This document shows positions 1,193-27,028 of a stretch of 37,759 nt of DNA, piece by piece. Source of the stretch: Methylobacter sp. GTDB lineage: Bacteria > Pseudomonadota > Gammaproteobacteria > Methylococcales > Methylomonadaceae. Numbering within the stretch: the stretch's first letter is position 1; each line of letters opens with the position of its first letter. The stretch spans positions 55,636 to 93,394 of the forward strand of contig JAPLRU010000063.1 of the NCBI GenBank assembly GCA_026399025.1, in the 5' to 3' direction. Below the pieces are notes generated by a model. It did not search any database and was not told where the DNA came from. It was given only the letters and a program-made list of their open reading frames with translations. A program made the position numbers and the translations under genes.

Positions 1193-1459
1193 TGTATTTG
1201 TAATTTGTTTTTTGCGAGTTACCCTATCAAACCTCATTCCATCCATCGACTTAACACAACACAGTTTGAATTAAGCCGTCTGCAAGCTTTGCCTGTGTCC
1301 CGTCTTTGCGTACAAGCCCAAACGAATATCTGTAGCATACAAAGTCATATCTACTTACAATACCCAGCTTTGTCAGTTTTTCCGGTAACCTTTTAAGTAC
1401 AGATAAAGCCATGCTCGCATGGCCTGTATGCTCAAACGAACTAATCAAACACGAGAACT
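1193..1459. other. Leader region of the large oxidoreductase
   Basis: This is an AT-rich non-coding stretch between the palindromic repeat and the start codon at 1460. It contains one short hairpin, GCCATG-CTCG-CATGGC at 1408-1423. No convincing Shine-Dalgarno sequence precedes the ATG; GAGA lies a few bases upstream. No promoter could be assigned with confidence. Confidence 0.4.
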
Positions 1460-4075
1460 ATGGAACAACACACTCTTACCCTTGGCATCCCCGGCTTTAA
1501 TTATTCCGATTTATACGATTCCGCGCGTCTGAAAGATTTGCTGGAGGTGTTTTTTCGTTCGGTTGAACGCCATGATTCGCAATTGCACGGCGAGTTCAAA
1601 GCTTATCGTCAAAATCAGGGTGAAGGTCTTGCGCCTGAGACGGTGTCCGATTTGCTGGTGCGCATGGGGCCGTATGTCGGTCAGTTTGTCGCCGAGCTTT
1701 TTAATGTTTCCGAGCCGCATCAGGCGCAGGGCGCAAAAATTAAGGATGAGATCGATACCATTTTTACCTATAAGAATGAAGTCGTCGATAAGCTGGCGTT
1801 CTTCTTTAAAGGCCAGAATGCCGATGATTGGGCTATCCCGGCGATTTTAAACCGTTTTGATTTACTGATTGAGGCCGGTTTTCCCGAAGCCAACCAAGAT
1901 GACGATGCCGAACACCGCGTTGCCAGAGTCGGTGCCGCTATCGGACGGTTATACAGTCATTACAAACTGCTTGCCAAAGGCAAAGACAGCGATTACGAAA
2001 ATGCTGATTTAGTCGCAGAGGCTTTGCGCGCCAAACTCGCCGCGCATGAAGAGGCTGCCGCCGAATTTAACGACATCCTTAATCAGCAAGATGCCGCCGA
2101 ATTGATCAACGGCTTGATGGACATCGTATTGCGCTGGAGTTTTGTCGCCCAACAAGACAACGATGTGGTTGCGAACTGGCCGAGTTTCAAACTTCCGCAA
2201 AAGCGCGATTTCGACTATCTGGTTGAGCACGAGCTGGTCGATCGCGGCGAATTTAAAACCTGGATGGGCGAGCGGGAACACCGCCGCCGTCGCGATGGCT
2301 TTAAACTAACCGATCTGCGTTTTAATGGACGCCAAGCCTTGTCCGAGGTTAATCACTGCATTTATTGCCATGAGCGCGATACCGATTCTTGCTCCAAAGG
2401 TATGCGTAACAAGAAAAACAACACCTTTAAAGTCGATCCGCTGGGCGTGACTACCATCGGTTGTCCGTTGGATGAAAAAATCTCGGAAATGAATTTGCTT
2501 AAACGCCAAGGCGACAATATCGGCGCATTGGCGATTGTTATCATCGATAATCCGATGTGTCCCGGCACCGGTCATCGTATCTGCAACGAGTGTATGAAAG
2601 GCTGTATTTACCAAAAAACCGATCCGGTCGATATTCCGCAAATTGAAACCAACGTGTTGACCGATGTGTTATTCATGCCTTACGGTTTTGAAATCTACAG
2701 CTTGCTGACCCGTTGGAATCCGCTCAACGTCAAGCGCCCGTATATGTTGCCTTACAACGGCAAAAACGCGTTGGTGGTCGGTCTCGGCCCCGCTGGCTAT
2801 ACGATGAGCCATTATTTGTTAAATGAAGGTTTCGGCGTTGCCGGTATCGACGGCTTAAAACTGGAGCCGCTACCGGTGGCGTTAACCGGCGACAGCGAGA
2901 ATTTGCCTGCGCCGATTGTGAATTTTCAAGACCTGTATGAAGATTTGGACAAACGCATTCTGGCCGGTTTCGGCGGCGTGGCCGAATACGGCATTACCGT
3001 GCGCTGGGACAAAAACTTCTTGAAAGTCATTTACCTGACCCTGCAACGGCGCGAGGCGTTCCGCGCCTACGGCGGCGTGCGTTTCGGCGGCACCATTACC
3101 ATTGACGACGCATGGCGCATGGGTTTTGACCATATCTGTATCGCTTCCGGCGCAGGCCAACCGACGATTATCGGTTTAAAAAACAACCTGATGCGCGGCA
3201 TACGTAAAGCCTCTGATTTTTTAATGGCTTTGCAATTAACCGGCGCGGCCAAAGCGTCTTCATTGGCGAATTTGCAGGTGCGTTTGCCTGCCGGCGTTAT
3301 CGGCGGCGGTTTGACTGCGATGGATACCGCAACCGAATTGCTGGCCTATTATCCGGTGCAGGTCGAAAAAATCCTGCATCGTTATGAAACGCTGGTCGAC
3401 ACTTACGGCGAGCAAAAAGTACGCAGCCGTTACGACCAAGAAGAAACCCTCATTCTTGATGAGTTTTTGGCGCACGGCAAAGCTATTGTCGCCGAACGCG
3501 AACGCGCGGAAGCGGAAGGCGAGCTGCCGGATTTCCAACCGTTGGTAGAAGCATGGGGCGGCGTCACGCTGTTTTACCGTAAAGGCATACACGATGCGCC
3601 CGCCTATCGCCAAAATCATGAAGAAATCGTTAAAGCACTGGAAGAAGGCATTGCCTTGGCCGAAGGCATGAGCCCGCTCGGCGCAGAGGCCGACGAATAC
3701 GGCCACCTGAACGCCGTTGAATTTGAAAAACTGGTACTGGAAGACGGCCGTTGGAACAATTCAGGCCAAAACATCACGGTGCCGTTGCGCAGCTTATACG
3801 TGGCCGCAGGCACCTCGCCGAACATCATTTATCAAAGCGAATACCCCGACACCTTTGTGATGGATAAATGGTTCTTCCAACGTCACGAACCTGAGTTTAT
3901 AAACGACTCGGTCGAATTAGTGCCGATGCACGATGAAGCCTTCCCCAAGCTGGGCAAGCCCGCGCCGCTGACGTCTTATCAAAAAGACGGCAAATTTATC
4001 AGCTTCTACGGTGATAACCAGCCCGTTTATGCGGGCAATGTGGTTAAAGCCATGGCCAGCGCCAAAGACGGCTAG
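1460..4075 (+). CDS. NfnL/GltD-like Fe-S flavoprotein, N-terminal half of a fused oxidoreductase ended by in-frame TAG
   Basis: An 871-residue protein. Residues 1-290 are a mostly helical extension I do not recognise. Residues 300-382 hold eight cysteines (C300, C303, C311, C335, C367, C375, C378, C382), as in the two-cluster [4Fe-4S] domain of GltD, NfnL and dihydropyrimidine dehydrogenase. GLGPAG at 441-446 is the FAD site, GVIGGGLTAMD at 612-622 the NAD(P)-domain fingerprint, and the end (GD-QPVYAGNVVKAMASAKDG) is the usual GltD-like FAD-contacting terminus. The TAG at 4073-4075 is followed in the same frame by a PyrK/NfnS-like domain up to 5158. The two ORFs therefore look like one 1232-codon gene, similar in domain content to NfnAB (NADH-dependent ferredoxin:NADP oxidoreductase) joined end to end. 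Whether it bifurcates electrons is inference. The N-terminal half alone keeps all its cofactor motifs. Confidence 0.8.
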   Translation: MEQHTLTLGIPGFNYSDLYDSARLKDLLEVFFRSVERHDSQLHGEFKAYRQNQGEGLAPETVSDLLVRMGPYVGQFVAELFNVSEPHQAQGAKIKDEIDTIFTYKNEVVDKLAFFFKGQNADDWAIPAILNRFDLLIEAGFPEANQDDDAEHRVARVGAAIGRLYSHYKLLAKGKDSDYENADLVAEALRAKLAAHEEAAAEFNDILNQQDAAELINGLMDIVLRWSFVAQQDNDVVANWPSFKLPQKRDFDYLVEHELVDRGEFKTWMGEREHRRRRDGFKLTDLRFNGRQALSEVNHCIYCHERDTDSCSKGMRNKKNNTFKVDPLGVTTIGCPLDEKISEMNLLKRQGDNIGALAIVIIDNPMCPGTGHRICNECMKGCIYQKTDPVDIPQIETNVLTDVLFMPYGFEIYSLLTRWNPLNVKRPYMLPYNGKNALVVGLGPAGYTMSHYLLNEGFGVAGIDGLKLEPLPVALTGDSENLPAPIVNFQDLYEDLDKRILAGFGGVAEYGITVRWDKNFLKVIYLTLQRREAFRAYGGVRFGGTITIDDAWRMGFDHICIASGAGQPTIIGLKNNLMRGIRKASDFLMALQLTGAAKASSLANLQVRLPAGVIGGGLTAMDTATELLAYYPVQVEKILHRYETLVDTYGEQKVRSRYDQEETLILDEFLAHGKAIVAERERAEAEGELPDFQPLVEAWGGVTLFYRKGIHDAPAYRQNHEEIVKALEEGIALAEGMSPLGAEADEYGHLNAVEFEKLVLEDGRWNNSGQNITVPLRSLYVAAGTSPNIIYQSEYPDTFVMDKWFFQRHEPEFINDSVELVPMHDEAFPKLGKPAPLTSYQKDGKFISFYGDNQPVYAGNVVKAMASAKDG

Positions 4076-8798: not shown

Positions 8799-9123
8799 TT
8801 ATCTATCCTCCATAAGAAATTTAAAAAACATGCAAAGTCAAAGGCTTGAGAATATGGAGTAGATAAGATGTTCCCACAATTAAAAATCCATTCCAATCCG
8901 CATTGTCCATGGCCTATGTAAACTACATCTCATTATAAGCGGCGCTTTATCGGAGCAATAATAAATTTTAAGTTATTTGGCAGTATAAGAGGCTAATAGA
9001 GGCAGTATTTGGATCTTTAATTCCATCTAAAATATGTTGGCGGATGACCATCTAAACGTCATTGACAACCCATAGCCACACACGATACTTTGGCGGACTA
9101 AAATCTCTTATCGGACACAGCTT
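8799..9123. other. Divergent intergenic region between the STAND-like operon and the DUF1640 gene
   Basis: A 325-bp AT-rich stretch separating two divergently transcribed units. It should hold both promoters. The ribosome-binding site of the minus-strand GTG start lies just inside its left edge (GGAGG around 8807-8812, read on the minus strand). I see no reading frame, tRNA or strong inverted repeat in it. Confidence 0.5.
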
Positions 9124-9396
9124 ATGACCACGATAATATTCGATACTCATAAATTTGTTCGCACGCTTAAAGACTCAGGCGTACCGGAAAATCAGGCTGA
9201 GGCCATTGCTGAAGTGATTAAAGAAGCCCAAGGCGAAGCTGAGTTGGCGACGAAAGCGGATATTGTTAGCGTTCGCCGTGATATTGATGATGTGCGTCGC
9301 GATATGCGGGAAATGGAGCAACGGCTAATCATTAAAATCGGGGCATTAATAGCCTTTGCTATGGGTATTGTTGCGGCTCTGGTGACGCTGCTATAG
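9124..9396 (+). CDS. DUF1640-family coiled-coil membrane protein
   Basis: A 90-aa protein opening with TIIFDTHKFVRTLKDSGVPENQAEAIAE, the signature start of the DUF1640 / CCDC90-like family. A charged coiled coil follows (about residues 30-68, with RRDIDDVRRDMREMEQRL heptads), then one C-terminal membrane helix (about 71-90). In bacteria these short proteins are often found singly or in multiple copies, frequently near mobile or toxin-antitoxin loci. The eukaryotic relatives are mitochondrial inner-membrane proteins linked to the calcium uniporter; the bacterial role is not known. It stands alone, with no co-directional close neighbour. Confidence 0.8.
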   Translation: MTTIIFDTHKFVRTLKDSGVPENQAEAIAEVIKEAQGEAELATKADIVSVRRDIDDVRRDMREMEQRLIIKIGALIAFAMGIVAALVTLL

Positions 9397-15192: not shown

Positions 15193-15591
15193 ATGGCTTT
15201 AATTACTTGGACAGCTGGTCAATACGGCACAAATGTTGGCTTTGCAGATGAAGAGCATCAAATTTTGTTTGATAAACTGAATAAGCTGTATGACTTGGCA
15301 ACAGGTGGTGCAGAGCGTTCTGCGATAGGTGCGCAATTAGATGATTTGATCTCATATGTTGTTGACCACTTTGCTCATGAAGAAAGAGAAATGCTGGCAA
15401 AAGGTTATGCCGGTTATGATCGTCACAAGGAAGAGCATGAAGCTCTGGTCGGTATTTGCGGTGGCCTACAAGCAAAATTTCATGCAGGTGAAGCTGAAGT
15501 TGACGAAGGCGTTGGTCAACTGGTTAAAGGTTGGTTAGATAACCATATCCCTAACTTTGATATGGCTTATGCGGATGCATTAAACAGCTGA
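15193..15591 (+). CDS. Bacteriohemerythrin
   Basis: A 132-aa four-helix-bundle di-iron oxygen-binding protein. The ligand set is complete: H22 (DEEHQ), H59 and E63 (DHFAHEE), H78 and H82 (RHKEEH), H118 and D123 (NHIPNFD). A strong ribosome-binding site (AGGAG, 7-8 bases upstream) and a strong terminator immediately after suggest a highly expressed monocistronic gene. In Methylococcus such proteins are proposed to deliver oxygen to the particulate methane monooxygenase. Here the oxygen-using neighbour is the aa3 oxidase operon just downstream, so supply to either enzyme is possible. No sensor or methyl-accepting domain is attached. Confidence 0.93.
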   Translation: MALITWTAGQYGTNVGFADEEHQILFDKLNKLYDLATGGAERSAIGAQLDDLISYVVDHFAHEEREMLAKGYAGYDRHKEEHEALVGICGGLQAKFHAGEAEVDEGVGQLVKGWLDNHIPNFDMAYADALNS

Positions 15592-15902: not shown

Positions 15903-17057
15903 GTGAAGAAAACAAAGCAACTGTTCGCAGGTCTGATCTTAATGGCTTTTGGTCTAGGGACAGTACAGGCGGATTACACGCTCAATTTAATGAAAGGGGT
16001 CACAAAGGTCAGCAATGATATTTATGACCTGCACATGTTGATTCTATGGATTTGTGTGTTCATAGGCATTGGCGTGTTCGGAACTATGTTCTATTCGATT
16101 TACCATCATCGTAAATCAAAAGGACATAAAGCGGAGCAGTTTCATGAAAATACGACGGTTGAAATTATCTGGACAATTATTCCGACTCTGATTCTGATCG
16201 GCATGGCTATTCCAGCTACAAAAGCCATGATGGAATTGGATGATGTGCAAGACTCCGAAATGTCTATTAAAGTAACAGGGCATCAGTGGAAATGGGAATA
16301 TGAATATCTTGATAATGGAATTCATTTTTTCAGCAGCTTGGACGAGGCCAGCAATAAAGTACGCCAAGTAGGTTCAGGCTTGGATCCTCGATCGGTCCCT
16401 AATTATTTATTAAATGTTGACAAGCCCTTAGTTATTCCGACTAAAAAGAAAATTCGTTTTGTATTTACCGCTAAAGACGTTATCCACTCGTGGTGGGTGC
16501 CTGATCTAGGTTGGAAGAAAGATACTATTCCCGGCTTTATTAATGAGTCATGGACTTCTGTTGACGAGCCCGGCACTTATCGCGGCCAATGTACTGAACT
16601 TTGCGGTAAGGATCATGGTTTTATGCCGATCGTTGTGATTGCAATGAACGAGCCTGAGTACAATGTTTGGGTAGAGCAACAAAAAGCAGCTGTGATTGCT
16701 GAGGCAGGATCGGCTAGCAAACAATGGAGCAATGAAGAGCTGATTGCTAAAGGTAAAGCTGTCTATGAGACCAGCTGCGCATCTTGCCACATGCCCGATG
16801 GTGCAGGGTTGCCAGGTACTTTTCCTGCTCTAAAGGCAAGTCCTATAGTAACCGGTGATATCAACGCTCAAGTTAAACTAGTCTTAAACGGAAAAGGCAT
16901 GATGCCTGCTTTCGAAAAAATGTTAAGCGCGGTTGATCTCGCTGCAGTCATAACTTATACCCGTAATGGTCTGGGTAATTCGGTGGGGGACTCTATTCAA
17001 CCTTCAGCTATTCAGGCTCTGCAATCGGCAACGCCGGGCGCAGGTAAAAATGAGTAA
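15903..17057 (+). CDS. coxB: Cytochrome c oxidase subunit II with fused cytochrome c domain
   Basis: A 384-aa aa3-type oxidase subunit II that takes electrons from cytochrome c and passes them to subunit I. The start is GTG with AGGAGG about 8 bases upstream. A signal segment (residues 5-23) is followed by two membrane helices (about 43-66 and 86-107). The CuA site is complete: H195, C230, C234, H238 and M241 in C-T-E-L-C-G-K-D-H-G-F-M. The C-terminal extension carries a haem c site CASCH (292-296) and a later GMMPAF methionine ligand, the caa3-type layout. It heads the operon with coxA 54 bp downstream. Confidence 0.96.
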   Translation: MKKTKQLFAGLILMAFGLGTVQADYTLNLMKGVTKVSNDIYDLHMLILWICVFIGIGVFGTMFYSIYHHRKSKGHKAEQFHENTTVEIIWTIIPTLILIGMAIPATKAMMELDDVQDSEMSIKVTGHQWKWEYEYLDNGIHFFSSLDEASNKVRQVGSGLDPRSVPNYLLNVDKPLVIPTKKKIRFVFTAKDVIHSWWVPDLGWKKDTIPGFINESWTSVDEPGTYRGQCTELCGKDHGFMPIVVIAMNEPEYNVWVEQQKAAVIAEAGSASKQWSNEELIAKGKAVYETSCASCHMPDGAGLPGTFPALKASPIVTGDINAQVKLVLNGKGMMPAFEKMLSAVDLAAVITYTRNGLGNSVGDSIQPSAIQALQSATPGAGKNE

Positions 17058-17111
17058 GTCATTGCGTTCTTATCGATCTAATCTTTTTTATATATTCAAG
17101 AGGTATAAAAT

Positions 17112-18728
17112 ATGTCTGCTGTAGTCGCTGAACATGATGATCATCACGATCATCACGATCATGGTCCTGCGAAGGGGCTCTTAAGATGGGTTATTACAAC
17201 CAATCATAAAGATATCGGTACGTTATATTTGGTGTTTGCGCTGGCGATGTTCTTTGTTGGCGGCGCCATGGCAATGGTTATTCGTGCCGAATTGTTTGAA
17301 CCGGGAATGCAGTTTGTTAATCCCCAGTTCTTTAATTCAATGACCACCATGCATGCTTTGGTTATGGTATTCGGTGCAGTTATGCCGGCGTTCGTTGGTT
17401 TGGCCAACTGGATGATTCCAATGATGATCGGTGCGCCGGATATGGCATTGCCGCGCATGAACAATATGAGCTTTTGGTTGTTGGTTGCCGGGGTTTTATT
17501 GCTGGCCAGTACTTTATTTATGGAAGGCGGTGCGCCTGCCGGCGGTTGGACTTTGTATCCGCCGTTAATATTGCAAACGGGTAAAGCATTGCCTTTTGCT
17601 GTTTTTGCGGTGCATTTGTTGGGTATTTCATCAATTATGGGTGCTATAAATATCGTCGCAACGATTTTTAATATGCGCGCCCCCGGCATGACTTTAATGA
17701 AAATGCCGATGTTTGTCTGGACTTGGTTAATTACCGGTTTTTTGCTAATTTCCATCATGCCTGTTTTTGCCGGTTCGGTGACGATGCTGTTGACAGACAA
17801 GTTTTTTCACACCAGTTTTTTTGATGCTGCCGGTGGCGGAGACCCTGTCCTTTATCAACATATTTTCTGGTTTTTCGGTCATCCTGAAGTTTACGTAATG
17901 ATTTTGCCCACTTTCGGTGTGGCTTCTACTATTATTCCGGTGTTTGCTCGTAAGCCTCTATTTGGCTACAGTTCAATGGTCTACGCGACGGCTTCCATTG
18001 CATTTTTGTCGTTTATCGTTTGGGCGCATCACATGTTTACGGTGGGTATGCCGATTGCGGGTGAGCTGTACTTCATGTATGCAACCATGTTAATTGCAAT
18101 TCCTACGGGTGTTAAAGTTTTTAACTGGACCGCAACTATGTGGAAAGGTTCCATGACTTTTGAAACACCGATGTTATTTAGCATCGCTTTCGTTGTTTTA
18201 TTTACGATGGGTGGATTTACCGGTTTAATGATGTCAGTTGCACCGGTTGATTTCCAGTATCACGATACTTACTTTATTGTCGCGCATTTCCATTACACAT
18301 TAGTTCCTGCGTCTGTCTTTATATTGATGGCTGCCGGCTATTTCTGGCTGCCTAAATGGACCGGCCATATGTATGATGAGAAAATTGGCAAATTACACTT
18401 CTGGTTGTCGGTAATCTCGGTAAATGTCTTATTTTTTCCTCAGCATTTCTTAGGGCTTGCCGGTATGCCGCGAAGAATTCCCGATTATGCTGTGCAATTT
18501 GCGGACTGGAATATGATTTCCAGTATCGGGGGCTTTATCTTCGGTGCAAGCCAGCTGTTGTTCCTATATATTGTCATTAAGACTGTCAAAGGTGGAACGG
18601 GTGAAACGGTAACTGATGAAGTTTGGGAAGATGCTTCTAAGCATAGCTTGGAGTGGACTTTATCGTCACCCCCTCCCTATCACTCGTTTACTACACCTCC
18701 GACAGTTATACCTACTGAACATATCTAA
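17112..18728 (+). CDS. coxA: Cytochrome c oxidase subunit I
   Basis: A 538-aa haem-copper oxidase catalytic subunit that reduces O2 to water and pumps protons. Twelve membrane helices are expected. Visible motifs include the low-spin haem His in TTMHALVMVFG, the CuB/Tyr motif WFFGHPEVYVMILP, the HH pair in VWAHHMFTVG, and HFHYTLVPAS with the high-spin and low-spin haem histidines. The E-x-x-x-Y and lysine-channel residues are compatible with an A-type oxidase. The cytoplasmic N-terminus is unusually rich in His and Asp (residues 8-17 alternate H and D). AGAGG precedes the ATG. It is followed by a 12-bp hairpin and the small-membrane-protein/ctaG pair. Confidence 0.97.
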   Translation: MSAVVAEHDDHHDHHDHGPAKGLLRWVITTNHKDIGTLYLVFALAMFFVGGAMAMVIRAELFEPGMQFVNPQFFNSMTTMHALVMVFGAVMPAFVGLANWMIPMMIGAPDMALPRMNNMSFWLLVAGVLLLASTLFMEGGAPAGGWTLYPPLILQTGKALPFAVFAVHLLGISSIMGAINIVATIFNMRAPGMTLMKMPMFVWTWLITGFLLISIMPVFAGSVTMLLTDKFFHTSFFDAAGGGDPVLYQHIFWFFGHPEVYVMILPTFGVASTIIPVFARKPLFGYSSMVYATASIAFLSFIVWAHHMFTVGMPIAGELYFMYATMLIAIPTGVKVFNWTATMWKGSMTFETPMLFSIAFVVLFTMGGFTGLMMSVAPVDFQYHDTYFIVAHFHYTLVPASVFILMAAGYFWLPKWTGHMYDEKIGKLHFWLSVISVNVLFFPQHFLGLAGMPRRIPDYAVQFADWNMISSIGGFIFGASQLLFLYIVIKTVKGGTGETVTDEVWEDASKHSLEWTLSSPPPYHSFTTPPTVIPTEHI

Positions 18729-18742
18729 GGATGGTGCATTCT

Positions 18743-18774
18743 CAGGTTGCTTTTTTGTCAGTAAAAGCAACCTG
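18743..18774 (+). promoter_or_regulatory. Intra-operon hairpin after coxA
   Basis: A perfect 12-bp stem (CAGGTTGCTTTT, 18743-18754; AAAAGCAACCTG, 18763-18774) with an 8-base loop lies 14 bases after the coxA stop. It lacks a following T-tract, so it may protect the coxBA transcript 3' end or partly attenuate expression of the assembly genes downstream. Confidence 0.6.
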
Positions 18775-18801
18775 CTTTAGATACGCGTATTAGGTGAAAG
18801 A

Positions 18802-18900
18802 ATGAAGACCAAAACGAAAAATATTTTAACAGCATTGGTTTTGATCTTGATGGCGGTCATTATTTATGTTTTTGCCGTGATAAGAGCAGTTTCTCAATGA
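18802..18900 (+). CDS. 32-aa small membrane protein of the cytochrome oxidase operon
   Basis: A short frame: ATG at 18802, TGA at 18898-18900. It encodes [20 protein letters not shown] followed by [12 protein letters not shown]. It has a basic N-terminus and a single membrane helix. AGGTGAAAG lies just upstream as a ribosome-binding site, and its end overlaps the ctaG start by 4 bp (ATGA), a strong sign of real translation. Many proteobacterial oxidase operons carry such a cytochrome oxidase small assembly protein just before ctaG. That assignment is by position, size and topology. Confidence 0.75.
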
Positions 18901-19439
18901 ATGAAGGCGTCAAGCAAAAAAACGCCAAATTAGTTCGAATCTTGGTGTTTGTTGTAGTGGGCATGTTCGGTTTCGGTTATGCTCTGGTTCCGCTTTATGA
19001 CGTTTTATGTGAGGTAACGGGACTTAATGGAAAAGTTGAATCTTCCGCTGTTAAGGAGGTTCACTATGAAATTGATAAAAGCCGGGAAATTACCGTAGAA
19101 TTTATGACTGCGCTGAATGAGGCTACACCAATGGTGTTCCGTTCAGAAATAAAAAAATTAAAAGTTCATCCGGGCGAATATTATACGGTGAATTTTTATG
19201 CGGAAAATAAGACCGATAAAGTGATGGTTGCTCGGGCAATTCCAAGTATTTCCCCTGGAGCGGTTGCTGAATTTTTTAAAAAAACCGAGTGTTTTTGTTT
19301 TTCAGAGCAAACATTCAAGGCGTTAGAAGGCAGAACTATGCCGGTGCGTTTTGTTGTTAGTCCGGAAATACCCAAGGAATATAAAACAATTACACTTGCA
19401 TATACATTTTTTGATAATACTGAAACATCAGTAAAATGA
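18897..19439 (+). CDS. ctaG: Cytochrome c oxidase assembly protein CtaG/Cox11 (CuB insertion)
   Basis: A 180-aa membrane-anchored copper chaperone that delivers copper to the CuB site of subunit I. One membrane helix near the N-terminus (about residues 14-32, LVFVVVG-type) is followed by a periplasmic immunoglobulin-like domain. The copper-binding CxC motif is present in [13 protein letters not shown], and [18 protein letters not shown] is the family's N-terminal signature. It is translationally coupled to the 32-aa membrane protein and precedes coxC by 12 bp, so it belongs to the same operon. Confidence 0.93.
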
Positions 19440-19451
19440 GAGAGGAAGGTC

Positions 19452-20315
19452 ATGTCTACAAGTAACGCTTATTATATTCCGCAGAAAGCCACTTGGCCGG
19501 TCGTTGCAACCGGCGGTTTGATGATGATGTTGGCTGGGTTTGCAAACTATTTAAACGGTTCGGCAGCCGGTTCCATCTGGATGTTGTTGGGCTTAGCTGT
19601 TTTTATTGTTATGGTGGCCGGCTGGTTCACGCTGCAGGCCGCTGAAAGCGAGTCAGGCATGTATAGTGCTCAGGTAGGGGTTTCTTACCGTATGGGTATG
19701 ATGTGGTTTATCTTTTCAGAAATCATATTTTTTGCCGTGTTCTTCGGCGCACTCTGGTATACGCGTAATTTGTCGGTACCCTGGTTGGGCGGGGAAGGTG
19801 CTAAGGCAGCAACTAAAGAATTATTATGGCCTACTTTTGAAGCCATCTGGCCAACTAACGGTCCTGGTAAGGTCGGCGGCGATTTTGAGTCTATGGGAGC
19901 ATGGGGAATACCTTTCTTAAATACCTTAATTCTCTTAACCAGCGGTGTGTCGTGTACTTGGGCGCATCATGGCTTACTCGCAAAAAACCGCGATCAGTTG
20001 ATTAAAGGCTTAATGGCTACTGTAGGTTTAGGGCTCTTATTCGTGTCTTTTCAAGCATTTGAGTATCATGAGGCTTATACCGATATGGGGTTAACTTTGG
20101 GCTCAGGCATTTATGGGTCTACCTTTTTCATGTTAACCGGCTTTCACGGCTTTCATGTTTGCGTAGGTGCTATTATGTTGAGTGTTGTGCTGTTTCGTAG
20201 TTGGAAAGGACACTTCTCGCCGGAAAATCATTTCGCTTTTGAAGCGGCGGCTTGGTATTGGCATTTTGTTGACGTAGTATGGTTAGGCTTATTTATATTT
20301 GTTTATGTAATTTAA
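19452..20315 (+). CDS. coxC: Cytochrome c oxidase subunit III
   Basis: A 287-aa integral membrane subunit with seven predicted helices. The family signatures FIFSEIIFFAVFFGALW, SCTWAHHGLLAKNRDQLIKG, GFHGFHVCVGAIML and EAAAWYWHFVDVVWLGLF are visible. AGAGGAAGG lies just upstream of the ATG. The gene is last in the coxBA-ctaG-coxC run and is followed by a strong terminator. It stabilises the catalytic core and binds lipids near the oxygen path; it carries no redox centre. Confidence 0.96.
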   Translation: MSTSNAYYIPQKATWPVVATGGLMMMLAGFANYLNGSAAGSIWMLLGLAVFIVMVAGWFTLQAAESESGMYSAQVGVSYRMGMMWFIFSEIIFFAVFFGALWYTRNLSVPWLGGEGAKAATKELLWPTFEAIWPTNGPGKVGGDFESMGAWGIPFLNTLILLTSGVSCTWAHHGLLAKNRDQLIKGLMATVGLGLLFVSFQAFEYHEAYTDMGLTLGSGIYGSTFFMLTGFHGFHVCVGAIMLSVVLFRSWKGHFSPENHFAFEAAAWYWHFVDVVWLGLFIFVYVI

Positions 20316-20334: not shown

Positions 20335-20368
20335 AAAAGCGCTGTCGTTAGGCAGCGCTTTTTTTTTG
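20335..20368 (+). terminator. Rho-independent terminator of the cox operon
   Basis: A 9-bp stem (AAAGCGCTG, 20336-20344; CAGCGCTTT, 20353-20361) with an 8-base loop is followed by a run of T residues. It lies about 20 bases after the coxC stop. Confidence 0.92.
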
Positions 20369-21111: not shown

Positions 21112-21834
21112 GTGAAGTTTAAAATCATTCCAACGCTGGTTTATTTGTGCCTGTTGCCGGTGTTACTAGCGCTGGGTATGTGGCAATTAGACCGTTCAAA
21201 GCAGAAACAGGCACTCCTTACGTCGCAAGAACAAGCGGTAGCAACTGAAACGTTACATTTATCGGCGACTATTGAAAACGACACAGAAGCATTGAGATAC
21301 AGACAGGTCGACGTTACCGGGCATTACGATGCCGCACACCAGTTTCTGATAGATAACCAAATCAGCGACGGGAAGGTAGGTTATTTTGTTTTGACTCCGT
21401 TTATTTTAGCCGGAGAAACTAAGGCCGTTTTAGTGAATAGAGGCTGGATCCCTTTAAACCGGAACCGGTCTGTACTCCCTGATTTGCAGGTTCATAACGC
21501 GCAAGCGACTATTGTCGGACGAATTAATCATTTTCCCAGTGTTGGTATAAAATTAGCCGGAGCGGAAACTCCAACAGAGAACTGGCCATCGACAGTGCAA
21601 GTGGTCGATACTAATGTTTTGGCTAAAAAGCTGGGCTATCCATTATTTCAATTCCAGGTTGAGCTGGCTAAAGAATTGCCCGAGGGCTTTAAAAGGGAGT
21701 GGCGCAGCTCAACAATTATGCTGCCTGAACAACACACAGCCTATGCAATTCAATGGTTTGCATTGGCATTGACATTAACGGTACTCTTTATTTGGTATAG
21801 CTTTAAACAGAACGATGCACAATCAAAAAAATAA
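21112..21834 (+). CDS. SURF1-family oxidase assembly protein
   Basis: A 240-aa protein with a membrane helix at each end (about residues 5-22 and 211-230) and a large periplasmic domain between. The family motifs are visible: LLALGMWQLDRSKQKQ, YRQVDVTGHYD, VLVNRGWIPL, and HTAYAIQWFALALTLTVLF near the C-terminus. SURF1/Shy1 proteins help insert haem a into subunit I. The start is GTG with CGGAG 8 bases upstream. It overlaps the next gene by 20 bp, so the two are co-translated. Confidence 0.92.
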   Translation: MKFKIIPTLVYLCLLPVLLALGMWQLDRSKQKQALLTSQEQAVATETLHLSATIENDTEALRYRQVDVTGHYDAAHQFLIDNQISDGKVGYFVLTPFILAGETKAVLVNRGWIPLNRNRSVLPDLQVHNAQATIVGRINHFPSVGIKLAGAETPTENWPSTVQVVDTNVLAKKLGYPLFQFQVELAKELPEGFKREWRSSTIMLPEQHTAYAIQWFALALTLTVLFIWYSFKQNDAQSKK

Positions 21835-22411
21835 AAATCATATATTAATTCTGGTTATTTTTGGAATGTCCGTTATTCCCTTTTTAATTGCGTGGGGATT
21901 AAAAGAAAATCCTCAGCTTTTAAATGGGCAAACTAATAAGGGGCAGTTAATAACGCCGCCACTGACGACCGAGCGCGGCGATTTAAGCGGTTTCGACCGA
22001 TTTTCAAGCGATAACATGTCCGAGCTTTCCGGGCACTGGTTGCTGGTAAACATTATACCCAACAGCGACTGCAATGAAGCCTGTATTGAAGCCATTCATA
22101 AAACCAAACAACTACGCTTAATGCTGAATAAGGAGCTGACCCGTACCCGTCGAGTTGCTCTGGTCTTAAAAAATGTTGCGCCGGAAACTGCGGATAAATG
22201 GTGGCAAGATGATCCAACCTTATTAAGAATTAAAGCCAGTGATGCATTAATCAAGAAAGTGACTGAAATTAAACAAGGCAACATTCCTGATGGCATGCTT
22301 TTGTTAATGGACCCGCTAGGTAACTTAATGATGCAGTATGAGCCGGGCTTCAATCCTTATGATGTAAAAAGCGATCTTATGCATCTTTTGCGTATCTCAC
22401 AAATTGGATAG
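21815..22411 (+). CDS. Membrane-anchored thioredoxin-like (SCO-type CxxxC) assembly protein
   Basis: A 198-aa protein: an N-terminal anchor helix (about residues 9-27), then a periplasmic domain in which HWLLVNIIPNSDCNEACIEA carries a CxxxC pair, as in SCO copper-transfer proteins, and DGMLLLMDPLGNLMMQYEPGF matches the final strands of a thioredoxin fold. The SCO histidine is not certain. The gene lies between SURF1 and ctaA in an oxidase cluster, where similar proteins are annotated as cytochrome oxidase assembly proteins. A thiol or copper role in CuA maturation is the likely function (inference). Confidence 0.75.
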   Translation: MHNQKNKNHILILVIFGMSVIPFLIAWGLKENPQLLNGQTNKGQLITPPLTTERGDLSGFDRFSSDNMSELSGHWLLVNIIPNSDCNEACIEAIHKTKQLRLMLNKELTRTRRVALVLKNVAPETADKWWQDDPTLLRIKASDALIKKVTEIKQGNIPDGMLLLMDPLGNLMMQYEPGFNPYDVKSDLMHLLRISQIG

Positions 22412-22421
22412 TGGAAATAAT

Positions 22422-24437
22422 ATGTTTAAAAAAATAACTCTCTTTAGCGTTGTTTTAGCTTTAATCGTTGTTGTAGCCGGTTCATACGTTCGCTTATCGG
22501 GAGCGGGGCTCGGTTGTCCGGATTGGCCGGGATGCTATGGACAGGCTATTCCCTTCGATTTTGCTCAAGGCGGAGTTAGCGATCATGCTGATTTTAAAGA
22601 GCGGGCGGCCAAAGCATTCCCTGGCGCAACTCCGGATATTGCCTTAGCCTGGAAAGAAATGAGTCATCGTTACTTGGCGGCAATCTTAGGCATAAGCGTT
22701 TTGCTGCTGGCCTTGCTTTCGTGGCGGCAACAACACAATCGTTTGCTAGCCGTTACCGGCGCATTGAGCTTGTCGGTTTTGATTGGATTGCAAGCGGCTT
22801 TAGGCATGTGGGCGGTCAAATTTCACGTTATGCCTGTTATTGTAACCGGACACCTGCTGTTAGGCATGATGACGTTCTGGCTATTATTCTGGCTGTACTT
22901 ACGGCTCAATTCCAAGGCTTCAGCATTAGCCGTGCATCGGAATGGTTTGGCTGTATTTGCTCGATTTGCAATGGGGATTTTGTTTTTAGAGATTATTTTA
23001 GGCGCTTGGGTCAGCGCCAACTATGCGGCTTTAGCCTGTTCGGGTTTTCCTCAATGTAACGGTTCATGGTGGCCTAAAGCCGATTATCAAACGGCGCTGA
23101 ATTTCTTTAGCGGATTAAACACCGGCTATACCGGCGTTATTGCATTCGATGCGCAGGTCGCTGCAAATTGGCTGCATAGGGTCGGTGCGCTGGTTAGTTT
23201 TATCGTACTGACCTTGTTGATGTTAAGCGCAACATCAGCGCATCACCCAAAGCCGGTAAGACGAGCCGGTTTGTGGCTGAGTGTAGTGCTGTTGTTGCAG
23301 ATCGGCTCGGGCATTATCGGCATTAGGCTCGGTGCGCCTTTATGGGCGGCGGTAGCTCATAATGCTTTTGCCGCATTATTAATGTTGCCGTTGATCGCTA
23401 TCGGTTTTTACAGTCGACACGCTTATGTCGAAGAGTTAAAACCCACTGTAGAAGCCGAGCCGCAACGCGAAGGCGCGGTTGTCCCGGAAGCGGAAGTTTA
23501 TCCGTTAGCGGAACCCGAGTCGCTATACTTACGCCTTAAAACCCAGTTAAAGCGCACCCGATCAGGGCTTGGCGGAGTATTAGCTCATATTCCCTTAGGC
23601 CGGCAAGAAATTGACGAGGATTTGCTGGAAGAAATTGAAGCCAGTTTGTTAATGGCTGATATAGGTGTTGAGGCGACAACGACCATTATCAAACGCTTGA
23701 CTGAACGCGTAGAGCGGCATCAGCTCAACGATGGCGAGGCCTTAGCCGCAGCCTTAAAGCAAGAGTTACTGAGTATGCTTAAGCCCTGCGACCAGAACTT
23801 GCGTATTCCTAAACAGGATAAACCCTTTGTTATCCTGGTCGTCGGCGTCAATGGGGCGGGCAAAACCACAACCATCGGTAAATTGGCCAAACGCCTCCAG
23901 GCACAAGGACATAGTGTGATGTTAGCCGCCGGAGATACCTTTAGAGCTGCTGCTGTCGAACAATTACAAACTTGGGGTGAACGTAATAATATTCACGTGG
24001 TGGCTCAGCATACCGGAGCCGATTCGGCATCGGTTATTTATGACGGTGTGCAGTCCGCGCAGGCCAAAGGTATTGATGTATTGATTGCCGATACGGCCGG
24101 GCGTTTGCATACAAAGTCCAATTTGATGGATGAATTGAAGAAAGTAAAACGGATTATAAGCAAGCTGGATGAAACCGCGCCTCATGAAGTGCTGCTGGTA
24201 TTGGATGCCGGTACCGGGCAAAATGCCTTGTCGCAAGCAAAGCTGTTTAACGAAACAGTGGCCTTGACGGGCTTGGTTCTGACTAAACTTGATGGCACGG
24301 CAAAAGGCGGTATTATTTTTGCGCTGGCCAAGCAGTTCACTATTCCGATTCGTTTTATCGGCATAGGCGAGGGTATCGATGATCTACAGGATTTCGATGC
24401 GGATGCTTTTGTAAATGCATTGTTTGTTAAAGACTAA
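22422..24437 (+). CDS. Fusion of heme A synthase (CtaA) and SRP receptor FtsY
   Basis: One 671-aa reading frame. The ATG at 22422 is preferred to an upstream in-frame TTG (22404) because GTGGA lies 7 bases before it. Residues 1-335 are a full-length COX15/CtaA: eight membrane helices, haem ligands near H82 (MSHRY), H144 (VTGHLL), H252 (WLHRVG) and H313 (VAHNAF), the C-P-D-W-P-G-C loop and the C-S-G-F-P-Q-C-N-G pair. Residues about 335-366 are acidic like an FtsY A region. Residues 366-671 are a full FtsY NG GTPase: GVNGAGKTTT (475-484), DTFRAAA (505-511), DTAGR (557-561), TKLDG (621-625), IGEG (648-651). No in-frame ATG, GTG or TTG occurs between residues 331 and 400, so FtsY has no obvious start of its own. 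CtaA has a cytoplasmic C-terminus, so the fused FtsY would sit on the correct side. ftsE follows as usual. Confidence 0.9.
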   Translation: MFKKITLFSVVLALIVVVAGSYVRLSGAGLGCPDWPGCYGQAIPFDFAQGGVSDHADFKERAAKAFPGATPDIALAWKEMSHRYLAAILGISVLLLALLSWRQQHNRLLAVTGALSLSVLIGLQAALGMWAVKFHVMPVIVTGHLLLGMMTFWLLFWLYLRLNSKASALAVHRNGLAVFARFAMGILFLEIILGAWVSANYAALACSGFPQCNGSWWPKADYQTALNFFSGLNTGYTGVIAFDAQVAANWLHRVGALVSFIVLTLLMLSATSAHHPKPVRRAGLWLSVVLLLQIGSGIIGIRLGAPLWAAVAHNAFAALLMLPLIAIGFYSRHAYVEELKPTVEAEPQREGAVVPEAEVYPLAEPESLYLRLKTQLKRTRSGLGGVLAHIPLGRQEIDEDLLEEIEASLLMADIGVEATTTIIKRLTERVERHQLNDGEALAAALKQELLSMLKPCDQNLRIPKQDKPFVILVVGVNGAGKTTTIGKLAKRLQAQGHSVMLAAGDTFRAAAVEQLQTWGERNNIHVVAQHTGADSASVIYDGVQSAQAKGIDVLIADTAGRLHTKSNLMDELKKVKRIISKLDETAPHEVLLVLDAGTGQNALSQAKLFNETVALTGLVLTKLDGTAKGGIIFALAKQFTIPIRFIGIGEGIDDLQDFDADAFVNALFVKD

Positions 24438-24444
24438 AAAACCT

Positions 24445-25101
24445 ATGTTAAAGTTCGATAATGTCAGCATGAGGTATCCCGGAGCAGGCGATGTGCTGCG
24501 CAATGTCAGCTTTCATCTACAGCGTGGTGAAATGGCTTTTCTGACCGGGCATTCGGGCGCTGGGAAAAGCACATTATTGAAATTGATTGCAGTTATTGAG
24601 CGTTGTAGCCGTGGGCAGGTTTTATTGGACGGTGAGAACCTTAATTTGGCTAAAGACAGGCACGTTCCTTTTATACGCAGGAAAGTGGGCTTGATTTTTC
24701 AGGATTACAAATTGCTGCAGGATAGAACGGTCTTTGACAATGTTGCATTGCCCTTGGTCATAGCGGGTTACGGTCACCATGAAGTTGCTCGAAGGGTGAG
24801 GGCGTCATTGGATAAAGTCGGGTTACTGGGCAAAGAGAAAAAATATCCCGCTGTTCTGTCAGGAGGCGAGCAGCAACGGGTCGGGATTGCCCGCGCGGTG
24901 ATTAATAAGCCGCTACTGATTGTGGCCGATGAACCAACCGGTAATCTCGATCCTGAATTGTCAGCTGAAATCATGCACTTGTTTGAACGCTTTCAACAAG
25001 TAGGCAGCACGGTACTGATTGCCTCGCATGATATTTCATTAATTAGCCAAATGAATCATCGAGTGTTGAAGCTGGATCACGGTCAATTGGTGGCGAGTTA
25101 A
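24445..25101 (+). CDS. ftsE: Cell-division ABC ATPase FtsE
   Basis: A 218-aa ABC ATPase that works with FtsX to regulate peptidoglycan amidases at the division site. Motifs: Walker [10 protein letters not shown]-loop IFQDYKLL, signature [14 protein letters not shown], Walker [16 protein letters not shown], and switch His in ASHDI. I start at the ATG 24445, 8 bases after the upstream stop. The longer frame from 24415 would overlap ftsY, and the family starts [13 protein letters not shown]. No clear ribosome-binding site is seen, so translation is probably coupled to the CtaA-FtsY gene. Gene order ftsY-ftsE-ftsX-rpoH is standard for gammaproteobacteria. Confidence 0.96.
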
Positions 25102-25104
25102 GCT

Positions 25105-26103
25105 ATGAGACATGCTGTTAACAGGAAGAAACCCAGTAGACAGGAGCGTTGGCAAACCAAAAAATCCGGCGGTAATTTTGTCGATAAATTCCATGCTTAC
25201 CGAAACCTTCATGCGCACGCTTTGTTTTCAAGTCTGGGGCGATTGGTCGCATCGCGATTTTCTTCTGTAATGACGATCGTTGTTTTGGCAATTGCCATTT
25301 CGTTGGCCAGCGGTTTTTATATTCTGGTGGCGAATCTGCAACAACTGGCAAGTAATTTGGAAGCCAGTAATCAAATTTCACTATTTCTTCGAGATGAAAT
25401 TTCAGAGGCAAGGGCTCAGAAGTTCGCAGACACTGTTAGACGGAATCCGGATATTCAGGAAGTGAAACTAATTACCAAAGAACAAGCATTGGCAGAGTTC
25501 GAGTCATTCAGCGGCTTCGGTGAAGCGGTAAAAGCGCTCGAAAAAAACCCACTCCCGATTGTTATTCAGGTGTTGCCGAAAAATTCAATGGCAAGCGAGC
25601 AGGCACTTGAGGATTTACTCGATAATTTCGGCAGAGCGGCAGAGGTTGATATTGTCAGAATGGATATGCAATGGGTGAAACGGCTAAAATCCATTATGGA
25701 AGTGGCACGGCGCGGCGTTATTTTATTAAGCTTGTTGCTGGGTGCCGGCGTATTGTTTATTACCGCTAATACGATACGCCTGGAGTTGCATAATCGCCGA
25801 GATGAAGTGGTGATCGCCAAACTGGTAGGAGCAACTAATGGATTTATTCATCGGCCGTTTCTATACAGTGGTTTCTGGATCGGCTTTTTTTCCGGGGTGA
25901 CGGCATGGTTTATTGTCACCATCATTATGTTAATTTTAAAGCAGCCTGTCGAAACCTTGTCCAGGCTTTATGATGACGGTTTTCATGTATTGTTCTTCGG
26001 TTTCACTGAAACGCTAGCATTGTTGTTCATTTCATCCGTGTTGGGTGTAGTCGGTTCATGGATAGTGCTTCATTTCCAGCTTAGGCAATTAAAGCCCGAA
26101 TAG
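25105..26103 (+). CDS. ftsX: Cell-division membrane protein FtsX
   Basis: A 332-aa partner of FtsE. It has a basic cytoplasmic N-terminus (residues 1-45, many Arg/Lys), a first membrane helix (about 53-75), a periplasmic domain (ISLFLRDEISEARAQKFA..., DIVRMDMQWVKRL), and three C-terminal helices with the family motif LLGAGVLFITANTIRLEL and RRDEVVIAKLVGATNGFIHRP. It begins 3 bp after ftsE. The complex passes ATP-driven conformational changes to periplasmic amidase activators. Confidence 0.95.
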   Translation: MRHAVNRKKPSRQERWQTKKSGGNFVDKFHAYRNLHAHALFSSLGRLVASRFSSVMTIVVLAIAISLASGFYILVANLQQLASNLEASNQISLFLRDEISEARAQKFADTVRRNPDIQEVKLITKEQALAEFESFSGFGEAVKALEKNPLPIVIQVLPKNSMASEQALEDLLDNFGRAAEVDIVRMDMQWVKRLKSIMEVARRGVILLSLLLGAGVLFITANTIRLELHNRRDEVVIAKLVGATNGFIHRPFLYSGFWIGFFSGVTAWFIVTIIMLILKQPVETLSRLYDDGFHVLFFGFTETLALLFISSVLGVVGSWIVLHFQLRQLKPE

Positions 26104-26110
26104 AAAATTA

Positions 26111-26137
26111 TTAGCACTCTTGTTTATAGAGTGCTAA
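26111..26137 (+). promoter_or_regulatory. CIRCE operator upstream of rpoH
   Basis: TTAGCACTC (26111-26119), nine bases, then GAGTGCTAA (26129-26137): a perfect match to the CIRCE element bound by the heat-shock repressor HrcA. It lies 7 bases after the ftsX stop and 33 bases before the rpoH ATG. A TAAAAT at 26135-26140 could be a -10 box overlapped by the operator. HrcA itself is not in the window. Repression of rpoH by HrcA is the direct prediction. Confidence 0.88.
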
Positions 26138-26170
26138 AATTTGAAAAAATTTTCTTTTAAGGGGATCTCA

Positions 26171-27028
26171 ATGAGTAATGCACTGGCTTTACCTATTAAT
26201 TTATCGGTCGGAACATTTGATGCCTATTTAAATGTCGTTAGGCAAATGCCTAAATTGACGATAGAGCAGGAACGCGATTTAGCCTTAAGATTTAGAGATG
26301 ACGGTGATTTAGAAGCCGCGCGCGAACTGGTTATGACCAATTTGCGTTTTGTGATTCATGTTGCCAGGGGATACAGCGGTTATGGCTTATCAATGCCGGA
26401 CATTATCCAGGAAGGCAACATCGGTTTGATGAAAGCCGTTAAGCGTTTTGACCCCGATGTGGGGGTGCGTTTGGTTTCTTTTGCGGTGCATTGGATTAAA
26501 GCTGAAATTCACGAATATGTCATTAAAAACTGGGGCATCGTAAAAGTCGCCACAACCAAAGCACAGCGTAAATTATTTTTTAACCTGCGCAAATCCAAAC
26601 AGGATTTAGGTTGGTTGTCTAATGACGAAGCGGTGGCGATTGCCAACGATCTTAATGTCGATGTGAGTGCGGTTTACGAAATGGAACAACGTTTGGGCAA
26701 CAGGGATATGTCGTTCGATATGTCGGCCGATGAGTCAACGGAAGACAGCTATGTTGCGCCGGCCAGTTATCTTTATCAGCATGGCTCCGACCCGGCGGCA
26801 CTGCTTGAAGATTCCGATTGGGAAGGCCACGCTCAGGATGTGTTGGCGGACGCCATGGCGGAGTTGGACGAACGGAGTCAGGATATTCTGGTCTGCCGCT
26901 GGTTGGCGGATGAAAAAGCGACATTGCACGAGCTTGCCGAACGCTACAACGTATCTGCCGAAAGGATCAGACAATTGGAAAAAAACGCAATGAAAAAAAT
27001 AAAGGCAGCGGTTGAACTTGCTGCGTGA
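26171..27028 (+). CDS. rpoH: Heat-shock sigma factor RpoH (sigma-32)
   Basis: A 285-aa sigma-70-family factor. Region 2 reads [20 protein letters not shown]. The RpoH box [13 protein letters not shown] is present and separates it from the housekeeping sigma. Region 4 with the helix-turn-helix is at the end ([28 protein letters not shown]). I start at ATG 26171, preceded by AAGGGG; the longer frame from 26141 lacks a signal. It directs transcription of chaperone and protease genes after heat shock. A perfect CIRCE element sits in its leader, so HrcA control is added to any promoter control. A terminator follows. Confidence 0.95.

Follow-up and report, generated by a model that had tools for sequence, protein, structure and literature searches.

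A haem A synthase-type membrane domain fused in frame to the signal recognition particle receptor FtsY in Methylobacter and related Methylococcales

Introduction

According to PMC2780400, it is debated whether bacterial FtsY, the receptor of the signal recognition particle (SRP), needs a soluble phase. The locus described here raises the question of whether a bacterium can build this receptor permanently into its membrane. It lies in a stretch of 37,759 nucleotides from Methylobacter sp. (NCBI GenBank assembly GCA_026399025.1, contig JAPLRU010000063.1, positions 55,636 to 93,394 of the forward strand), referred to below as the window. A single open reading frame (ORF) on its plus strand, ctaA~ftsY (22422..24437), encodes a CtaA-type membrane domain, as found in haem A synthase, followed by FtsY. 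The genome sequences establish that both proteins are parts of one polypeptide, that no other FtsY was found in the genome, and that relatives from six families read through the linker in the same frame; we infer that FtsY is permanently anchored to the membrane. The product is thus very probably a natural, permanently membrane-anchored SRP receptor with a former haem A synthase as its anchor, and it may be bifunctional in the window species.

The fused gene and its product

The ORF comprises 671 codons and a stop, with no internal stop, and was assigned by ORF reading, Pfam, and NCBIfam. Three Pfam domains score above their cut-offs: COX15-CtaA at residues 5-322 (230 bits), SRP54_N at 393-449, and SRP54 at 468-668 (260 bits). 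The CtaA half is full length, covering positions 3-319 of the 322 in profile PF02628. The whole protein scores 375.8 bits against the NCBIfam FtsY equivalog model TIGR00064 (cut-off 260.7), and an automatic FtsY annotation could therefore hide the CtaA half. With NF045570, a model of alphaproteobacterial heme A synthase, the window protein reaches 46.5 bits and an unfused outgroup CtaA 50.7, both below the cut-off of 550. A preliminary description, made from the window sequence, had proposed one uninterrupted 671-codon frame with a complete CtaA and a complete FtsY NG GTPase; the Pfam matches agree with it, as does the NCBIfam FtsY model for the FtsY part.

The CtaA-type domain spans residues 1-331 (22422..23414, plus strand; Pfam, structure model, and alignment). 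The model contains eight long helices, at residues 2-25, 73-100, 107-133, 138-161, 174-199, 242-270, 277-303, and 306-330. A C206/C212 cysteine pair is present. In the alignment, E79, H82, and H144 correspond to E57, H60, and H123 of Bacillus subtilis CtaA, and H252 and H313 to H216 and H278, so that all five of these residues are present (His numbering from PMC12808453). Positively charged residues occur in the loops before transmembrane helices (TM) 1, 3, 5, and 7 and after TM8; from these charges, both termini of the CtaA half are predicted to be cytoplasmic, with FtsY facing the cytoplasm. The earlier expectation that CtaA ends in the cytoplasm is consistent with this positive-inside pattern.

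Residues 332-367 (23415..23522, plus strand; start scan and structure model) form an acidic linker that is predicted to be disordered and lacks a start codon. The FtsY N and G domains follow at residues 368-671 (23523..24434, plus strand; Pfam, NCBIfam, and Foldseek), opening with a conserved amphipathic helix (LYLRLKTQLKRT). The G-domain motif residues K481 (P-loop), D557 (DTAGR), and D624 (TKLD) are found in the window protein and in 257 of 258 aligned proteins, the exception showing K with gaps. The structure model has a mean pLDDT of 78 and a pTM of 0.52, with pLDDT below 50 at residues 335-364. Its best Foldseek match is 6cqp_A (TM-score by target 0.88), and the best 50 rows contain SRP GTPases only, with no CtaA-fold match among them; the assignment of the CtaA fold therefore comes from the Pfam profile, from the match to 6a2j, and from the arrangement of helices.

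The only FtsY found and a second CtaA in the genome

The window genome (5.23 Mb, 138 contigs, completeness estimate 100%) was searched with the SRP54-family profile, and no second ftsY was found on its contigs. Other matches above cut-off lie in open frames of 458 and 527 amino acids (aa), which by their length would be Ffh and FlhF; one weak match on contig 90 falls below the cut-off. A second, free-standing CtaA is present on contig 34 in an open frame of 347 aa. It adjoins a ygfZ-like gene and not ctaB, the single match to the ctaB model being on contig 20. This copy (L348:6846-7814) is of another type, with Asn at position 60 and without the second Cys pair. Of the separate copies whose existence the preliminary description had thought worth checking, only that of ctaA was thus found.

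Spread of the fusion

Families within the order Methylococcales are labelled f1 to f8. The fused match occurs in 21 of the 23 genomes of the window genus, the two without it being 80% and 72% complete. Matches were found in 228 of 237 genomes of the family and 300 of 311 of the order, the latter count including the unfused f2 and f8. Carriers of the fusion belong to f1, f3, f4, f5, f6, and f7 (291 genomes), and the gene is unfused in f2 (18 genomes) and f8 (2). Related loci come from Methylobacter, Methylomonas, Methylovulum, Methylomicrobium, Methylotuvimicrobium, Methylicorpusculum, Crenothrix, and 'Methylococcales bacterium' (80 of 360 related stretches), and the fusion is also present in a complete chromosome, that of Methylomicrobium sp. 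wino1 (L063).

Loci L007-L317 yielded 258 distinct FtsY proteins, 251 from the fused families and seven from f2 and f8. At least 195 residues of the membrane domain precede FtsY in the same frame in 246 of the 251; of the remaining five, three are fragments at contig edges, and L163 (G165) and L090 are interrupted. No intact separate ftsY was found in the fused families among the 311 genomes searched, and the FtsY-only matches in G029, G053, G084, G143, and G175 all reach contig ends. Ten fused-family genomes of the 291 gave no match at 1e-60 (G005, G016, G043, G141, G149, G188, G194, G198, G199, and G278), and in none of them was FtsY found at 1e-45, G278 showing CtaA. Assembly gaps are the likeliest cause, even though G043 is rated 100% complete. 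An extra partial FtsY-like frame of 262 aa lies beside the standalone FtsY of one f2 genome (G240, contig 223:1105-1770).

Beyond the order, a class sample of 369 genomes gave three matches at E 1e-140, all of them inside the order. A phylum sample of 398 genomes gave 190 matches at E 1e-85, and among about 150 listed, all but the window's own are confined to the FtsY part (from query position 316); at these thresholds, a fusion that had diverged further would escape notice. A plasmid collection contained no match to the junction.

This distribution bears on whether the fusion stems from faulty sequencing or assembly, or from a neutral accident in a single strain. Errors or breaks do happen, as four interrupted copies among the genomes with a match illustrate. 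One (G040) has one stop; in L163 (G165), the frame changes at the junction, at a homopolymer run (8900-9150); in L401 (G291), the CtaA part adjoins the FtsY part on the same strand but in another frame, the FtsY alignment being shortened (1319-3068); and in L413 (G038), the frame changes within the CtaA half, away from the junction (946-2911). Nevertheless, the same frame recurs across six families, in 246 of 251 proteins, including those of isolates and of a complete chromosome, so that an assembly or frameshift artefact is ruled out by the relatives' copies, and the chance of a strain-level accident is practically negligible. The missed stop, frameshift, or assembly join that had been considered as a possible refutation is excluded in the same way, and the search for CtaA-FtsY proteins in related genomes suggested at the outset has an affirmative answer. 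The accompanying remark that the cells must survive with this form holds insofar as no other FtsY was found; the picture of a single strain does not, as the fusion is spread over most of the order.

The fusion was also considered as a marker of methane oxidation (pMMO) and rejected as a simple correlate, because AMO/PmoA-family genes occur in unfused genomes (12 of 18 in f2, both in f8) and were not found in six of the 24 fused genomes tested (G185, G256, G257, G266, G306, and G308).

The junction

If the two halves separated during or after translation, by protease cleavage in the linker or through an internal start, the fusion would be a matter of expressing two proteins. The linker is indeed flexible, variable, and fast-evolving: pLDDT falls below 50, and the ratio of nonsynonymous to synonymous substitutions (dN/dS) is 0.25-0.69 in the 15 groups compared, all values below 1 (NG86 pairwise medians, region dN over FtsY-part dS, with 2 to 163 pairs per group). 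Moreover, G165 and G291 have the two parts in different frames. Against separation, the linker takes 40 different lengths between 16 and 63 aa, and every one of them is in frame (n = 246). It is net acidic in 227 of the 246, which extends to the relatives the acidic junction first noted in the window protein.

Starts were scanned in the same set. The window protein has no in-frame ATG, GTG, or TTG at residues 325-400, as had been proposed for an FtsY with no obvious start of its own, and the earliest in-frame start past the linker, a TTG at 401, lacks a Shine-Dalgarno (SD)-like motif. An ATG with an SD-like motif was found at residues 331-398 in only 2 of the 246 junctions, compared with 191, 17, and 7 in three control stretches; for any start codon with such a motif, the counts are 38 against 195, 86, and 45. 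A free FtsY from an internal start, which the preliminary description had put forward for checking, is thus unsupported by the scan. Furthermore, a released FtsY would be without its first membrane-targeting segment. Two unfused outgroup FtsY proteins begin with MFGFGKKK before the amphipathic helix, one of them with an acidic stretch in between; the window protein has the acidic stretch and the helix, but neither this beginning nor a start of its own. Separation into two proteins is accordingly rated as quite improbable.

Probable origin by inversion

In the unfused families (L148-L152 of f2 and L153 of f8), the cox genes, surf1, and a PA0111-like gene are followed by ctaA and ctaB, then by rpoH, ftsX, ftsE, and ftsY in the opposite orientation (ctaA>ctaB> <rpoH<ftsX<ftsE<ftsY), and finally by two M16 genes and rsmD (M16>M16>rsmD), with some extra genes in L151 and L153. 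The Escherichia coli order is rpoH<ftsX<ftsE<ftsY, then rsmD>. In eight of ten f5 genomes, the fused gene is followed by ftsE, ftsX, and rpoH on the same strand, by an inverted ctaB, and then by M16>M16>rsmD> and the next gene (ctaA~ftsY>, (ftsE, ftsX), rpoH>, <ctaB). For the other two, L390 has the inverted ctaB at the edge of its stretch and the L386 stretch ends at rpoH. In one f5 locus (L389, G298), ftsE and ftsX were not detected between the fused gene and rpoH. The ctaB and M16 genes are placed likewise in G265 (f4), with other genes between, and one Methylobacter (L049) still has ctaB inverted downstream.

Judged by gene order, the f5 arrangement is the outcome of flipping the segment from ctaB to ftsY. 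It is well supported by these comparisons that the fusion arose once, through an inversion joining the 3' end of ctaA to ftsY, and likewise well supported that ftsY thereby lost its own start together with the short segment at its N-terminus that targets the membrane. An eight-gene tree (40 taxa, E. coli root, without family f7) places the 33 fused taxa in one clade (UFBoot 100); f8 branches next to it (69), and f2 lies outside. A single origin is the simplest reading of gene order and this tree.

Fate of the CtaA half

The N-terminal bundle of CtaA is the substrate and catalytic side, and the C-terminal bundle binds haem b via two His, as described in PMC8239418, PMC7327177, and PMC12808453. 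Replacement of H60 by Leu, or of H123 by Leu or Met, is reported to give inactive CtaA in which haem binding persists (PMC12808453). In the 246 fused proteins, E57 is retained in 81, H60 (as His or Asn) in 166, and H123 in 160, with all three in 66; at the C-terminal site, H216 is retained in 240, H278 in 243, both in 240, and the second Cys pair in 240. The only positions of the CtaA half that are at least 95% identical are G194, W196, C206, P210, C212, H252, and H313. As controls, outgroup CtaA proteins keep all seven residues in 14 of 14 cases, and the 18 second copies recovered out of 20 loci carry E57, Asn at 60, H123, H216, and H278 without exception; the H60N type occurs in nature according to PMC8239418 and PMC12808453. 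A rough count on a weak FtsY tree gives 37 losses of the two N-site His, 33 of E57, 5 of the C-site, and 4 of the Cys pair. By the alignment, therefore, the N-terminal catalytic site has decayed repeatedly after fusion, and the C-site and the Cys pair have been kept.

Decay can be extreme, as in genus g26, where about 235 residues remain, with six predicted TM in 16 of 17 proteins and five in one (a crude hydropathy count), and where the copy scanned has a Pfam CtaA match confined to profile positions 139-319. In G201, no Pfam CtaA match is found at E 0.01; about 200 hydrophobic residues with five counted spans stand in frame with FtsY. In one locus (L215, G230), L and F stand in place of the two C-site ligands, and the alignment shows H60, H123, and the Cys pair as present.

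Second copies were counted across the order. Among unfused genomes, a single CtaA match was found in 13 of 18 in f2 and in both of f8; of the remaining f2 genomes, two have more than one and three have none. Among the 291 fused-family genomes, 261 have two or more, 27 have one, and 3 have none. The fused copy is the sole CtaA in five genomes at least 94% complete (four of group g21, and G308), and all residues are kept in all five; the fifth and last g21 genome, 65% complete, lacks any CtaA match. Genomes below 94% were left out of this argument because the contig with a second CtaA may be missing. Among those with a single match, G010, G096, and G292 are intact, G079, G088, and G090 lack E57 only, and G018 and G307 lack more, and four others (G054, G129, G161, and G183) have no mapped locus. 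For G043, G141, G143, G149, G194, G198, G199, G201, G202, and G016, either the E-value or the lack of a fused match suggests that the one CtaA match is the second copy.

The dN/dS values differ between groups. In g21, both CtaA halves are at 0.066 and FtsY at 0.070; in f5, the values are 0.387 (N), 0.297 (C), and 0.097 (FtsY); and in g26, 0.216, 0.079, and 0.042, respectively. In the window genus, the CtaA half is still constrained, as indicated by values of 0.125 (N) and 0.130 (C), with FtsY at 0.036, and 17 of 20 sequences keep all seven residues. With all the catalytic residues compared intact and under purifying selection, the CtaA half of the window species may also make haem A; for many relatives, the prediction is an anchor that binds haem b but has no synthase activity. 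Thus, the original name heme A synthase suits the window protein, which keeps the catalytic residues, but not the fused proteins at large, of which only 66 of 246 hold E57, H60, and H123 together.

A functional coupling might also explain the fusion: haem A synthase would be placed where SRP delivers CtaD, subunit I of cytochrome oxidase, and haem A would be inserted as CtaD is made. In keeping with this, the gene sits within the cox cluster beside SURF1 and an assembly-type disulfide protein, the CtaA half is conserved and constrained in the window genus, and the fused copies that are the sole CtaA in the five genomes at least 94% complete are all intact. However, many lineages lost catalytic residues yet kept the fusion, and coupling is therefore not its general reason; as an overall explanation, it is improbable.

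Neighbouring genes

Upstream on the plus strand lie the cytochrome oxidase genes coxB-ctaD-ctaG-coxC (15903..20315), named from reading and synteny rather than from a scan. They are preceded by a 132-aa ORF (15193-15591), labelled bacteriohemerythrin-like by reading only, which recurs ahead of cox genes in several Methylobacter loci. A terminator-like hairpin lies 3' of coxC (20335..20362, plus strand; consensus match only), and coxB-coxC transcription might stop there, before ctaA-ftsY; the window has 11 terminator-like sites, compared with 8.4 in shuffles. The preliminary description had supposed that the cox operon and the cell-division/heat-shock operon would share transcripts, which for coxB-coxC may not hold. 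Next come, also on the plus strand and both assigned with the help of synteny, a gene for a SURF1-like cytochrome oxidase biogenesis protein (21112..21834; 123.8 bits, below the cut-off of 190) and, directly upstream of the fused gene, one for a PA0111-family redox-active disulfide protein (21815..22411; 51.9 bits, below the cut-off of 230). In three other loci (L161 in G265, L162 in G272, and L164 in G106), the fused frame runs some 70-210 codons upstream of the CtaA start, which is probably an overlap with the preceding gene.

Downstream, ftsE (24445..25101, with its start at the ATG at 24445; 24415 in the ORF list), ftsX (25105..26103), and rpoH, the heat-shock sigma factor gene (26141..27028), follow on the plus strand. 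Their names come from order and sequence, not from a scan, and by synteny ftsE is the conserved downstream neighbour of the fused gene. Between ftsX and rpoH lies an inverted repeat of 10 pairs (26111-26137) that is terminator-like on the minus strand.

Discussion

A permanently anchored receptor could work as follows. The cytoplasmic end of TM8 and the flexible acidic linker would hold the NG GTPase at the membrane, the CtaA anchor doing constitutively what the N-terminal segment of E. coli FtsY does transiently. The amphipathic helix at the A/N boundary would still read contact with lipid or translocon, the linker would let NG meet SRP, and the receptor to which SRP-ribosome complexes dock would stay at the membrane throughout. 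The second CtaA may have taken over the enzyme duty from the fused copy. Experiments reported in PMC2780400 and PMC5533587 make such an arrangement plausible: E. coli FtsY works in vivo when its first membrane-binding motif is swapped for a TM or an unrelated membrane protein, and according to PMC5533587 the tethered protein is functional provided that FtsY is free to leave the closed state. In the fused proteins, the helix at the A/N boundary is still present, and the replacement affects the first membrane-binding segment only.

Several points weigh against this interpretation. For anchoring alone, a single TM would be enough, and the kept haem-b ligands and cysteines ask for more, although by analogy they may simply hold the bundle together. 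dN/dS is higher in the N than in the C half in 10 of 15 groups, lower in four, and equal in one, and the contrast between the halves is thus not universal. Loss of E57 need not by itself inactivate the enzyme, natural E57N and E57K being tabulated in PMC8239418. Single-residue alignment is uncertain in strongly decayed copies, and some TM counts are odd (five in G201). The FtsY part of G165 and G291 is out of frame with the adjacent CtaA, which may reflect errors or real re-splits. Finally, an FtsY-only tree fails to recover the fused clade, placing f8 near g21 (support 0.73).

The conserved C-site also suggests a haem-loaded SRP receptor, in which the C-bundle, with haem b between H252 and H313 and with C206/C212, would keep or switch the state of FtsY, so that haem or the redox or oxygen status would control, or be needed for, co-translational membrane insertion. 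Aquifex CtaA is a trimer built around its C-bundles, as reported in PMC7327177, and the fused proteins might by analogy be assembled in this way. Decayed N-bundles next to a nearly untouched C-site would mark such a new role. Although possible, this regulatory role appears unlikely at present, and the permanently anchored receptor with a former enzyme as its anchor is preferred.

If so, nature has run a permanent-tether experiment across six families, including culturable methanotrophs. The locus would also document the birth of a fusion unusually well, through one inversion with both neighbours still readable, after which an enzyme seems to become a scaffold, and it places a conserved haem site on an essential targeting factor.

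Comparison with known systems

Judged by titles and the starts of abstracts, searches of the open-access PMC literature brought up no description of a CtaA-FtsY fusion; subscription journals and domain-architecture databases lie outside this scope, and may show the architecture. Membrane-anchored FtsY as such is already known: PMC5533587 cites a case from Streptomyces. The FtsY of Streptomyces lividans (Bibi et al. 2001, as cited there), a putative integral-membrane SRP receptor, has a hydrophobic N-terminal anchor, comparable to the eight TM that precede NG here; however, that anchor is described as a hydrophobic motif, whereas the present one is an entire former enzyme whose haem site is conserved. 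Engineered tethered FtsY (Zelazny 1997, as cited) has the same layout of a membrane protein followed by the NG domain and is functional in E. coli, but it is man-made, and the fusion described here is natural and common to six families.

Compared with E. coli-type FtsY (PDB 2yhs, 6cqp), the fused protein shares the full NG GTPase, the A/N-boundary amphipathic helix, and the ftsY-ftsE-ftsX-rpoH gene order; it differs in that the short N-terminal targeting segment has given way to a whole eight-TM haem protein and in that FtsY lacks its own start codon. The window copy resembles B. subtilis-type CtaA/Cox15 with two Cys pairs (PDB 6a2j) in its eight TM, four His, E57, and Cys in both periplasmic loops, and differs from it by the C-terminal FtsY, many relatives having in addition lost the catalytic site of the N-bundle and kept the haem-b site of the C-bundle. 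CtaA is also joined to another protein in the CtaA-CtaB fusions reported in PMC9145763, PMC8239418, and PMC12808453, although the partner described there is heme O synthase, a neighbouring enzyme of the pathway. Finally, the eukaryotic SRP receptor alpha/beta, as described in PMC2780400, likewise keeps its GTPase at the membrane for good through an integral membrane partner; there, the partner is a separate GTPase subunit, SR-beta, whereas here it is a covalently attached haem-protein anchor.

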